A DNA stretch of 64,000 nt from Qipengyuania sp. YIM B01966 (GTDB lineage Bacteria; Pseudomonadota; Alphaproteobacteria; Sphingomonadales; Sphingomonadaceae). Each line of letters starts with the position of its first letter. Position 1 is the stretch's first letter. Under the pieces are notes generated by a model, which saw only the letters and a program-made list of their open reading frames with translations, made no database searches and was not told the origin of the DNA. Of the stretch, positions 34,977-42,286 are shown in pieces. The position numbers were made by a program, and so were the translations under genes. The DNA lies in the NCBI RefSeq assembly GCF_016461955.1, contig NZ_JADMNM010000008.1, positions 1-64,000 on the forward strand, written 5' to 3'.

Positions 34977-39194
<4,218 letters not shown>

Positions 39195-39416
39195 GGAGGA
39201 GATCAGCCTCTTGTCAGAAATGTGGTGCGCCGGGATACAGGCGCCTGGAAATTGCCGGTGCGTGAGGAAGCCTCGCCGGACGCAGACAGGCCGCGCACGG
39301 CCCGATCCCCAGAGGGAGGGCGTGAGCAGCCAGCATCGCGTGTCGAGGAACCCGTTTCCATCCCGGTCAGCACGCGCGCCCGCGGCCGACTTGCTCGAAA
39401 CGGCAGTTCGGGCGGC

Positions 39417-39445
39417 GCTATAGTGCGCGCATCCTCTCGTGTCAA
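39417..39445 (-). promoter_or_regulatory. rpoB promoter
   Basis: On the minus strand TTGACA (39445-39440) and TATAGC (39422-39417) are spaced 17 bp apart, a near-consensus housekeeping promoter. It would give an untranslated leader of about 215 nt before rpoB. This gives rpoBC its own promoter, independent of rplJL. Confidence 0.75.
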
Positions 39446-39502
39446 ACGCCCGTCCTGCTCTGACCGACCAGCTCGCCAATCACGCCTAACGATAAGACAT
39501 AC

Positions 39503-39560
39503 ATCGCTTTTCGATATTATCGTTTGACAGTAAGAGGGACCCGCATTATCGATTTTCGAT
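39503..39560 (+). promoter_or_regulatory. Promoter with paired operator-like sites upstream of the small peptide/DUF2975/XRE unit
   Basis: Two copies of an imperfect palindrome, ATCG(A/C)TTTTCGAT, lie at 39503-39515 and 39548-39560, 45 bp apart. The second copy is a perfect ATCGA-TTT-TCGAT. A -35 box TTGACA (39524-39529) lies between them. A weak -10 (TATCGA at 39547-39552, 17-bp spacer) overlaps the second copy. A repressor binding both sites would block the promoter. The obvious candidate is the XRE protein encoded in this unit. Confidence 0.65.
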
Positions 39561-39583
39561 ATCGAACATATCGGAGAACAATC

Positions 39584-39709
39584 ATGCTCAGCCTCACGCA
39601 ACATTTTACCGCCGCTATCGCAGCGATCTTCATCGTGACCGCGACATTCGTCCCGGTGCTGACCGTCCCGCCTGCCCCTGCCGCATCGGCGACGCTCAAC
39701 CTCGCCTGA
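39584..39709 (+). CDS. Short hydrophobic peptide, first gene of the DUF2975 unit
   Basis: This is a 41-aa peptide with one hydrophobic helix (residues 9-28, A-A-I-A-A-I-F-I-V-T-A-T-F-V) and a Pro/Ala-rich C terminus. It looks like a signal peptide with a very short mature part or a single-pass membrane peptide. GGAG lies 7 nt upstream of the ATG. It ends 25 nt before the DUF2975 gene and shares its promoter. Function is unknown. Confidence 0.6.
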   Translation: MLSLTQHFTAAIAAIFIVTATFVPVLTVPPAPAASATLNLA

Positions 39710-39734
39710 CCATAGACCTTGAGGAGACCACGCG

Positions 39735-40283
39735 ATGTCCATTCTTACCCGTGACCCGCTGCTCGCCTTTGCGCGCGGGCTGCTTTATTTCCTACTTGCC
39801 GTGCTTGGCTTTGCCGCCGCGATGCTCATCCTTGCGGCAATCATCGTTCCGTTTGCCGGCGACCGGATCGTGTCCGAAATGGCAAGAGAAGGCATCGCCA
39901 ACGGCCGGACGCTGGTGCCCGCCCTGTCTGTCCTGCTACTTGCGATTGGGGGCCTACTCGGGCTGGCGATGTATTTCATGCGGCAGCTCCTGGCGATCGT
40001 TGTCAGCGTGAGTGAAGGCGATCCTTTCGTCCCGGCGAATGCCGAGCGCCTGTCGCGGATGGGCTGGACCGCGCTGACCGGCCACCTGCTCGCGCTGCCC
40101 GTCGGCGCGCTGGTCTTGTGGTTCACGCACGAGGTCAAGGACGGGGCCAATGGCAAGCTCGTGATCGAGGACCACATCTCGATTTCGTTGAGCGGCATCA
40201 TGCTGATCCTGACCCTGTTCATCCTGGCCCGCGTGTTCCGTCAGGGGGCGATGATGCGGGCCGAACTGGAAGGGACCGTCTGA
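39735..40283 (+). CDS. DUF2975 membrane protein
   Basis: This 182-aa protein has four predicted membrane helices: about residues 15-38, 52-77, 105-125 and 150-170. It matches the DUF2975 family by arrangement and by the E-G-D-P-F-V segment after the second helix. These proteins are almost always paired with a small YozG-like XRE regulator, as here, where the stop and the next start overlap (TGATG). The role is unknown; the pairing may form a regulated membrane stress module. AGGAGA precedes the start. Confidence 0.85.
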   Translation: MSILTRDPLLAFARGLLYFLLAVLGFAAAMLILAAIIVPFAGDRIVSEMAREGIANGRTLVPALSVLLLAIGGLLGLAMYFMRQLLAIVVSVSEGDPFVPANAERLSRMGWTALTGHLLALPVGALVLWFTHEVKDGANGKLVIEDHISISLSGIMLILTLFILARVFRQGAMMRAELEGTV

Positions 40284-40534
40284 TGGCCCCGCCCGACACC
40301 CCCCGGACCGAAGGTGATGGCATCGTGATCAAACTCGATGACTTGCTCTACGACCGGCGTATGACGCTGACCGAGCTGGCCGAGCGGGTCGGGATCACGC
40401 TGGCCAACCTGTCGATCCTCAAGACCGGCAAGGCCAAGGCGATCCGCTTTTCAACGCTGGAGGCGATCTGCCGCGAACTCGACTGCCAGCCAGGTGACCT
40501 GCTGGGCTACGCACCCGCCGGCAAAAACGGGTAG
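40283..40534 (+). CDS. YozG-like XRE transcriptional regulator
   Basis: This 83-aa protein is essentially one HTH domain: M-T-L-T-E-L-A-E-R-V-G-I-T-L-A-N-L-S-I-L then R-F-S-T-L-E-A-I-C-R-E-L-D-C-Q-P-G-D-L-L. The C-terminal pattern is the YozG/YdaS-like signature. It overlaps the DUF2975 stop by 1 nt. It probably represses its own unit through the paired palindromes at 39503-39560. That target is inferred from position. Confidence 0.88.
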   Translation: MAPPDTPRTEGDGIVIKLDDLLYDRRMTLTELAERVGITLANLSILKTGKAKAIRFSTLEAICRELDCQPGDLLGYAPAGKNG

Positions 40535-40604
40535 AAAGGCTGACGGCGCCGGGAACAAAGTTTAATTGTGGCGATTTAAAGGCACCCACTAGGGAGAATT
40601 GACG

Positions 40605-40985
40605 ATGAAAAAGATTGCTCTGACCGCCGCCCCGATCGCGCTTGCTTTCGGCCTCGCTGCTTGCGATTCGACCCCCGAAACCGCCGACCCCGCGGCGACG
40701 GACACCACCACCGAGATGGCCGCTCCGGCCGACACGGGTACCACCACGGCGACCACCGGCGCGACCGCCACGACCGGCGCCGCCGGCACCACCGGCACCG
40801 CCAACGCCAATCCCAACGGCGTCGCCGCGGGCGAAACCACCCGCCAGGCTGCTGAGCGTCTCGACGAAACCGCCGAGAACTTGGAAGAGCGCGCCGACCG
40901 CGTCGAGGGCGTGAACGAAGCCGAAGCCGACCGCCTCGAAGCGGCGGCCAAGGCGCGGCAGGAAACCCGCGACCAGCTGCGCTAA
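40605..40985 (+). CDS. Thr/Ala-rich lipoprotein of unknown function
   Basis: A lipoprotein signal (L-A-F-G-L-A-A-C) is followed by a low-complexity Thr/Ala/Gly segment (about residues 25-70) and then a helical E-R-L-D-E-T-A-E-N-L-E-E-R coiled region. The pattern suggests an outer-membrane-tethered protein with a flexible linker. AGGGAG precedes the ATG at 40605. A hairpin terminator lies 55 bp past its end. Confidence 0.75.
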   Translation: MKKIALTAAPIALAFGLAACDSTPETADPAATDTTTEMAAPADTGTTTATTGATATTGAAGTTGTANANPNGVAAGETTRQAAERLDETAENLEERADRVEGVNEAEADRLEAAAKARQETRDQLR

Positions 40986-41324
40986 ACCGGTGCCGCGCGG
41001 GGTTGCCAGCGTGGCTTGACCCCGGCCGGAGTTCTGCTAGAGGCCCGCCCGACCGGCGGGCCTCTTTGCGTCTGCACGGTCATCCGTCCGAGACAGCTGC
41101 TGCACCGGGTCTGCCGGCGCTTAATCCGCAGCCTAGACGGGGAAACGAGATTATCCGCTGCCATCGTGCAGCGGCGCGCCGGTGACGGCACTCCTCCTTC
41201 CCTATCGACGGACTCGCCCGCCCTCGCACGGCCGTCCGGCCACGCGCGGCGGACAATAGTGAGCCGGCCGCGGCGCCGCGCCCTGTGCGGGGCGGCAACG
41301 CGGTCATTTGTGAAGGAGTACGGC
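40986..41324 (+). promoter_or_regulatory. Gap with promoter, hairpin and long leader before rplJ
   Basis: This 339-bp region has no credible gene. A promoter-like pair, TTGACC at 41016-41021 and TAGAGG at 41038-41043 (16-bp spacer), lies upstream. A perfect 10-bp hairpin at 41040-41064 followed by TTT overlaps its -10 box; it may terminate the upstream lipoprotein gene. The remaining 260 nt would form an rplJ leader, possibly an L10 autoregulatory site. I cannot confirm that fold. Confidence 0.5.
41040..41067 (+). terminator. Hairpin terminator after the lipoprotein gene
   Basis: Arms GAGGCCCGCC and GGCGGGCCTC enclose a 5-nt loop, followed by TTT. The T-run is short. Confidence 0.6.
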
Positions 41325-41840
41325 ATGGATCGTTCGCAGAAAACCGAATCGGTCGCCGAGCTTAACGAGGTCTTCGGCCGGGCAGGCGTGGTGGTTGTCA
41401 CCCGCAACCTGGGCCTGTCGGTGGCGCAATCCACCGATCTGCGCGCGAAGATGCGGGAAGCAGGGGCGTCCTACAAGGTTGCGAAGAACCGCCTCGCCAA
41501 GCTCGCCCTCAAGGACACCGATTACACCGGGCTGGATGAGTATCTCACCGGCCCGACCGCCCTCGCTTATTCCGAGGATCCGGTGGCAGCCGCCAAGGCT
41601 GCGGTGGAATTCGCCAAGACGAACGACAAGCTCGAAATCGTCGGCGGTTCGATGGGCAGCCAGGTGCTCGACTCAGCCGGGATCAAGGCGCTTGCCTCGA
41701 TGCCGAGCCTCGACGAGCTGCGCGGCACGCTGATCGGCCTCATCAACGCCCCGGCGACCAAGATCGCCCGGGTCGTCAACGAGCCGGCAGCCAAGCTGGC
41801 CCGTGTCTTCGGTGCCTATGGCGCCAAGGAAGCGGCGTAA
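41325..41840 (+). CDS. rplJ: Ribosomal protein L10
   Basis: This 171-aa protein anchors the L7/L12 stalk on the 50S subunit. N-R-N-L-G-L-like and Y-K-V-A-K-N-R-L-A motifs and the C-terminal helix match L10. GAAGGAG precedes the ATG at 41325; longer in-frame reading upstream is leader sequence. It forms an operon with rplL, 68 nt downstream. In most bacteria rpoBC follows directly; here it does not. Confidence 0.97.
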
Positions 41841-41908
41841 GCGGTTTTTCGCCCGAAAAGCGACAATTCGGGGCAGGTGCCCCAGCCAGTTGAATGGAGT
41901 GACAGATC

Positions 41909-42286
41909 ATGGCCGATGTAGCCAAGCTTGTTGAAGAACTTTCGAAGCTGACCGTCATGGAAGCCGCCGAGCTTGCCAAGGCGCTGGAAGAAGAGTGGGG
42001 CGTTTCCGCCGCGGCCGCCGTGGCCGTTGCTGGCCCGGCCGGTGGCGGCGCTGCTGCCGAAGCGGTTGAGGAAAAGGACGAATTCGACGTCATCCTGACC
42101 GGTGACGGCGGCAAGAAGATCCAGGTGATCAAGGAAGTCCGCGCGATCACCGGCCTCGGTCTGACCGAAGCCAAGGCGCTGGTCGAAGGCGCGCCCAAGC
42201 CGATCAAGGAAGGCGTGAACAAGGCCGAAGCCGAAGAAGTGAAGAAGAAGATCGAAGAAGCCGGCGGCACCGTCGAGCTGAAGTAA
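41909..42286 (+). CDS. rplL: Ribosomal protein L7/L12
   Basis: This 125-aa stalk protein has an N-terminal dimerisation helix ([16 protein letters not shown]), an Ala/Gly hinge (A-G-G-G-A-A-A-E) and a C-terminal factor-binding domain ([19 protein letters not shown]). It ends before a good intrinsic terminator, which isolates it from any downstream gene. Confidence 0.98.

Follow-up and report, generated by a model that had tools for sequence, protein, structure and literature searches.

The window analysed here is the whole 64,000-nucleotide stretch at the start of contig NZ_JADMNM010000008.1 of Qipengyuania sp. YIM B01966. Between rpoB and rplJ it holds a short unit of three genes, for a small membrane peptide, a DUF2975 membrane protein and an XRE regulator. 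What might such a unit do at this address, and what controls it? The DUF2975/XRE pair is known already; the peptide gene and a defined operator are added here. Together with the promoter architecture and the conserved, predicted inner face of the membrane protein, they make a testable three-part circuit of what was an uncharacterised pair.

The unit and its control region in the window

A first-pass annotation of the window had described two palindromes bracketing a TTGACA box, the second of them overlapping the -10 box, in front of a unit inserted between rpoBC and rplJL. Both palindromes were confirmed, at 39503-39515 and 39548-39560, with TTGACA (39524-39529) between them, and the second one does overlap the -10 box TATCGA (39547-39552). 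The features of the region are, in order:

39481-39493, unstranded: O0, upstream site at the relatives' consensus position; only the right half (CGAT) is left in the window genome
39503-39515, unstranded: O1, operator ATCGCTTTTCGAT; pattern match and relatives' consensus
39519-39531, unstranded: O2, operator ATCGTTTGACAGT over the -35 box, 16 bp after O1; relatives' consensus position
39524-39529, forward strand: -35 box TTGACA, by eye
39547-39552, forward strand: -10 box TATCGA after a 17-bp spacer, from the sequence; family consensus TATTGA
39548-39560, unstranded: O3, operator ATCGATTTTCGAT over the -10 box, 45 bp from O1; pattern match
39570-39582, unstranded: O4, site ATCGGAGAACAAT holding the GGAG ribosome-binding site of the peptide gene; relatives' consensus position
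39584-39709, forward strand: single-span membrane peptide, 41 aa, from the ORF list
39735-40283, forward strand: DUF2975 membrane protein, 182 aa (PF11188, 49.5 bits, cut-off 27)
40283-40534, forward strand: HTH_26 / YozG-type XRE regulator, 83 aa (PF13443, 79.1 bits, cut-off 22)

The pattern ATCGNTTTTCGAT has two matches in the whole 2.44 Mb genome (2,437,315 bases in 43 contigs), both at this promoter, and within the window two were observed against 0.02 expected from shuffled sequence. The O0 half site, O2 on the -35 box and O4 over the ribosome-binding site of the peptide had been overlooked: the two palindromes are part of a larger array of putative operators. O2 is partly decayed in the window, its right half being one base off AT[CT]GN5C[AG]AT.

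The annotation had also proposed coupled starts for genes encoding a membrane peptide, a membrane protein of four helices and a minimal XRE repressor. All three genes were found, the peptide gene as an ORF and the other two by Pfam; an AlphaFold2 model shows the four helices of DUF2975. The coupling holds for the DUF2975/XRE junction, where stop and start share 1 nt (TGATG), but not for the peptide and DUF2975 genes, which do not overlap and are separated by a 25-nt gap containing GAGGAG (by eye). Upstream lies divergent rpoB, with its start at 39194, and downstream rplJ (from 41325) and then rplL, all three named from their sequences. A small Ala/Thr-rich lipoprotein-like ORF (40605-40985) sits between the XRE gene and rplJ. 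It adjoins the unit in only 2 of the 80 named loci described below (tblastn), and look-alikes, recognized by eye, persist at the empty sites of two genomes (G004, L198; G019, L208).

Conservation of the operator array and of the chromosomal position

We compared the control region across relatives. The first relatives came from 59 genomes searched (the window's own included), of which 15 have a DUF2975 protein. A family sample of 298 genomes was drawn evenly, and 133 of them carry DUF2975. For the named loci the best 80 of 438 were taken, which biases them towards close relatives. At least two AT[CT]GN5C[AG]AT sites were found upstream of DUF2975 in all 14 first relatives, 12 of which have a pair of sites 45-47 bp apart; the spacing is 17 bp between the two sites of L009, and 22 and 17 bp between the three of L010.

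Among the named loci, a site pair 40-50 bp apart lies upstream of DUF2975 in 71 of 80, in 400-bp and 500-bp windows alike, and was not found in the other nine. The spacing is exactly 45 bp, the O1-O3 distance, in 53. Shuffled sequences gave a mean of 0.02 such loci and at most 1 of 80, and none of 1779 control tiles had the pair. Genome count, shuffles and control tiles rule out chance palindromes. A search for the palindrome at related DUF2975 loci had been suggested as the test of the original claim, and the 71 loci with a pair uphold it. The commonest site spacings over the 80 loci are 16, 45, 29, 67 and 22 bp (60, 53, 51, 22 and 21 pairs, respectively); 67 bp is the O1-O4 distance, and the 22-bp class includes O0-O1 and O3-O4. 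Read as putative binding sites, they describe an array of five positions, O0 to O4, in which O2 covers the -35 box, O3 the -10 box and O4 surrounds the ribosome-binding site. The consensus of 78 loci runs CATATCGTTTTTCGATATTATCGATTGACAATAAG, a variable stretch, CTTATTGAATATCGATAT and CATATnGGAGAnCGA, then ATG; note that this alignment was anchored on TTGAC, which is invariant there by construction.

A composite O1+O2 pattern was searched in the 298 genomes of the family sample. It gave 70 matches, one in each of 70 genomes, and its reversed control gave none. Of these matches, 69 lie 41-402 bp from DUF2975 (limit 500 bp); the odd one, found in G216, begins 111 bases from the end of its contig nearest position 1, with DUF2975 on another contig, and was scored as non-adjacent. 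Thus, the array looks dedicated to the unit. A wider regulon for the full array is ruled out by the single match per matching genome and the 69 of 70 at the unit. The composite pattern has no match in the window's own genome, because O2 departs from the pattern there.

The proposed location between rpoBC and rplJL was right, and it is conserved: in 70 of the 80 named loci the unit stands between divergent rpoB (upstream) and rplJ (downstream). One or both of these genes were found within the fetched stretch in 77 loci and neither in L064, L067 and L092. Among the 14 first relatives, rplJ is on the same contig within ~3.1 kb in 11, the same 11 in which the peptide was detected; in the remaining three, rplJ lies on a different contig or at a distance of 1.4 Mb. 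Three genomes without DUF2975 (G004, G013 and G019) have divergent rpoB and rplJ, and the interval between the two genes matched neither DUF2975 nor XRE. The unit thus seems to be long established in the split rpoBC/rplJL neighbourhood and to have been lost from it several times. The empty site of G004 (L198) contains a lone ATCGGTTGACGAT, probably what remains of a lost unit's promoter.

The comparison of rplJ flanks covered 30 of 57 rplJ matches. In six genomes from the family or order (L214, L215, L218, L221, L224 and L226), rplJ and rpoB are co-directional and in the usual order; in nine further genomes no rpoB match was found inside the 1.5-kb flanks of rplJ. In the window (34977-42286), rpoB is divergent from rplJ, as elsewhere in this clade, and the apparent breakpoint is where the unit lies.

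The window DUF2975 protein had no match in 50,697 phage records and one weak match in 72,556 plasmids. This search and the fixed rpoB/rplJ position rule out a mobile or phage-borne element. One locus, L092, from a record labelled Planctomycetes bacterium Pla86, has the DUF2975/XRE pair and the same 45-bp operator pair, and no peptide was detected there; transfer between phyla or a sequence mix-up is possible.

The three gene products

Behind the promoter, an ORF with a ribosome-binding site was found in 77 of the 80 named loci; one of these (L052) was dropped as not hydrophobic, leaving 76, and in 67 of them the peptide starts 59-63 nt after TTGAC. Peptide translations were analysed for the window and 73 other loci (L056, L067 and L094 were also omitted). 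Of these 74, 73 have a membrane-span-like stretch, 65 have K, R or H among the first ten residues, 68 end in LA, IA, LM or VA, and 54 have A-x-A after the span. In all 15 closest peptide pairs listed dN was lower than dS, an estimate that is rough for so short a gene. The sequences show constraint on the peptide at the protein level. A profile was built from 75 peptide sequences, the window's included. Searched in 40 relatives, all nine of its matches at E<1e-5 lie beside DUF2975, and five weaker ones (E 0.0019-0.0088) all lie away from it; the window peptide scores E 7.5e-8, being itself one row of the profile. Two different peptide ORFs in tandem occur between the promoter and DUF2975 in L009, L067 and L094; tandem peptides were sought in L009 and where DUF2975 is preceded by a gap of more than 90 nt. 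In L015-L017 (3 of the 14 first relatives) no peptide was detected, despite the presence of the gene pair and operators. Thus, the peptide is not obligatory.

The junction of the next two genes is tightly kept. At the DUF2975 stop, 74 named loci read TGATG and 6 read TAATG. In 77 of the 80 the XRE frame starts at this ATG (75 as judged by motif, and L052 and L080 on reading the sequence). The exceptions are L058 and L074, where the ATG begins a membrane-like ORF of 133 aa and XRE follows ~560 nt further down, and L083, where it begins a 30-aa ORF and XRE follows ~90 nt down. Short gene overlaps are said often to join subunits of one complex (PMC10666635). The stop/start coupling suggests a direct partnership of XRE and DUF2975. 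The only solved sequence matching the window XRE protein at E up to 0.01 is 3tyr (E 3.2e-5, residues 17-78). The likeness to this solved XRE regulator (3TYR/3TYS) is one of sequence. PDB 3TYR carries the COG label YozG in the accessible portion of PMC9239279, which gives neither a function nor a DNA site for it.

For the membrane protein, a Pfam scan (E up to 1) returned DUF2975, DUF6704 and DUF898. The AlphaFold2 model, made from 81 sequences, has a pLDDT of 92.3 and four long helices, and the region borders used below were chosen from it. The loop that joins helices 2 and 3 has a K/R count of 3.8 and the outer loops have 1.3 and 0.9, which fits a predicted topology with both N and C termini inside. 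The predicted outer loops are acidic, with net charges of -1.5 and -2.8; the C-terminal tail, with a net charge of -0.6, goes against this N-in/C-in assignment. Mean column identity is 0.37 and 0.23 in the outer loops and 0.69 and 0.82 in the inner loop and the tail; helices 1 and 2 (0.41 and 0.39) are close to the outer loops, the least conserved parts. Within residues 1-10, 88-111 and 161-182 there are 33 invariant or nearly invariant positions, which fall on the predicted inner face or in the adjacent membrane.

XRE is by far the most conserved of the three products: over 67 loci the mean pairwise distance is 0.18 for XRE, 0.59 for DUF2975 and 0.70 for the peptide. In partial Mantel comparisons given rpoB distance (67 of the 80 loci), r was 0.27 for peptide and DUF2975 and 0.23 for peptide and XRE. 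Thus, co-variation of peptide and DUF2975 is weak and not specific.

Searches for a known DUF2975 fold in the PDB returned no convincing relative, and none that would point to a mechanism. The best Foldseek match had E 0.43, the best VIA-align matches (Z 9.6; BAR domains, designed bundles and others) may reflect a common helix arrangement only, and the DUF2975 profile against solved sequences gave one chain, at E 0.62. A first scan of contigs with one single protein as query found no relative. In each of two contigs (G202:C3 and G308:C1) two DUF2975 matches lie side by side.

DUF2975 is widespread beyond the family. PF11188 was found in 37 of 299 genomes of a wider phylum sample and, among 14 named control genomes, in five (Bacillus, Caulobacter, Bacteroides, Corynebacterium and Lactococcus), one of them Caulobacter vibrioides. 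An XRE gene adjoins DUF2975 in 21 of 23 loci fetched outside the family, and operators are weaker there (7 of 23 loci with the strict pattern vs 1 of 69 control tiles). A second family, f12, carries DUF2975 in 113 of 119 genomes. We analysed 24 of its loci; of the 36 collected, 10 were dropped where the C-terminal motif missed the frame and 2 belonged to f20. Some of the 24 are close relatives, and the L163 and L167 peptides are identical. An AT[CT]GN5C[AG]AT site lies within 450 bp upstream in 19 of 24, against 0 of 69 flank tiles. A hydrophobic ORF of 35-47 aa with a ribosome-binding site was found in 18 of 24; shuffles gave 0.11 of 24, and 4 of 166 flank tiles had one. All 18 peptides have a central P and 17 of them have [DE][RK]; in an alignment judged by eye they look unlike those of the first family. 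Operator and hydrophobic ORF thus indicate that the peptide-DUF2975-XRE architecture recurs in two families.

A candidate circuit and its alternatives

The unit contains a PF11188 protein and an adjacent, co-directional single-domain HTH_26 regulator, the composition of a DUF2975 + HTH_26 pair. YoaS is a DUF2975 protein. A YoaS-like/Xre pair is listed as a conserved association by Makarova et al. 2009 (PMC2701414), and the DUF2975/XRE pair appears as cppC/cppD of Streptomyces cacaoi in PMC7827011. The likeness to the YoaS-like/YozG-type pair is that the same two protein families stand side by side; unlike the plain YoaS/YozG pair, this unit has a leading peptide gene, an array of up to five sites and the rpoB-rplJ address.

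Conserved, dedicated sites imply that the XRE protein binds the array, and autoregulation of the unit by this protein is strongly implied. The unit probably forms a small membrane-signalling circuit, with signalling steps that we infer. We give an even chance to an autoregulated circuit in which XRE represses, DUF2975 controls XRE and the peptide acts on DUF2975. The YozG-type regulator would bind the 13-bp sites over the -35 box, the -10 box and the ribosome-binding site and keep its own unit low. DUF2975 in the inner membrane may contact XRE through its inner face (the loop at ~83-111 and the tail RVFR.GA.MR.DLEGTV) and, by holding or inactivating it at the membrane, would induce the unit. 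The single-span peptide, made first and fast-evolving, and the variable DUF2975 outer loops would jointly provide the input; as a ligand, gate or toxin, the peptide might set the capture of the repressor by DUF2975, the weakest step of the model. The full array would confine the action of the circuit to itself.

A homeostatic unit, possible if somewhat unlikely, would show the same operators. Here DUF2975 would be an effector, such as a small channel, a permease or an envelope-stress protein, without signalling to XRE; the peptide would be its small regulatory subunit and XRE would merely cap the level. The loci L015-L017, with no peptide detected, are in keeping with such a unit, and so is the description of the YoaS-like partner of Xre as 'a membrane protein, likely permease' by Makarova et al. 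(PMC2701414). It fits less well with the strongest DUF2975 conservation on the predicted inner face and tail, and with the stop/start coupling in 77 of 80 loci, which suggests a direct partnership of the regulator with the membrane protein.

Could the unit instead be of a toxin-immunity or toxin-antitoxin-like kind, the peptide (or DUF2975) harming the membrane when over-made and XRE and DUF2975, as immunity protein, restraining it? A small hydrophobic peptide before a membrane protein, a regulator that is likely self-repressing, the tandem peptide ORFs of L009, L067 and L094 and the patchy presence of DUF2975 (133 of 298 genomes) all speak for it. Yet the fixed position, without a phage match and with one weak plasmid match, is not the mobile pattern of addiction modules, some units lack a detected peptide, and Xre-membrane protein pairs were left off the type II list in PMC2701414; we consider this reading quite improbable. 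The least probable reading, a very unlikely one, is that the small ORF is a cis-acting leader that tunes DUF2975 translation and whose product is inert. Its place as first ORF, a start 59-63 nt after TTGAC at 67 of the 76 loci and the overlap of O4 with its ribosome-binding site would fit a leader. It is hard to reconcile with dN below dS in the 15 closest pairs listed (rough for a short gene), with the conserved span (73/74) and ends (LA, IA, LM or VA, 68/74), with duplicated peptide copies, or with a different, equally hydrophobic peptide in the second family.

We take the SdpI-family membrane protein and the SdpR-family repressor to be the families that define the Sdp system. The Pfam scan (E up to 1) gave no match to the SdpI family, and the regulator's best match was HTH_26; the unit is not classed as SdpC-SdpI-SdpR because no family is common to both. 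The likeness, in the proposed model only, consists in an autorepressor, a sequestering polytopic membrane protein and a small peptide signal; the unit differs in its DUF2975 and XRE/HTH_26 proteins, in having the peptide in the same operon and in its rpoB and rplJL neighbours. In the Bacillus subtilis system (PMC1626106), the membrane protein senses the toxin or ligand and then sequesters the autorepressor. A tentative and rather unlikely reading would be a peptide-sensing or peptide-toxin/immunity circuit of Alphaproteobacteria, in which a fast-evolving, lineage-specific peptide, membrane-bound or secreted, is both product and ligand of a DUF2975 protein acting on a near-invariant XRE autorepressor. 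If so, SdpC/I/R-like logic would have been built from unrelated parts and kept at one chromosomal address across much of one family, with another peptide in the second.

A type II toxin-antitoxin system, which pairs two small soluble proteins, one of them a toxin, was rejected, the partner being a four-helix DUF2975 membrane protein. Makarova et al. had excluded Xre-membrane protein pairs on the ground that no type II system with a membrane component was known (PMC2701414). For comparison there are natural loci that have or lack the peptide, and natural empty sites. In the full-text library searched, no paper gave a function for the DUF2975/XRE pair or dealt with the peptide. In that literature, two papers name DUF2975 once each, within gene lists, and a Mycoplasma paper assigns a restriction-system regulator to the YozG subfamily.
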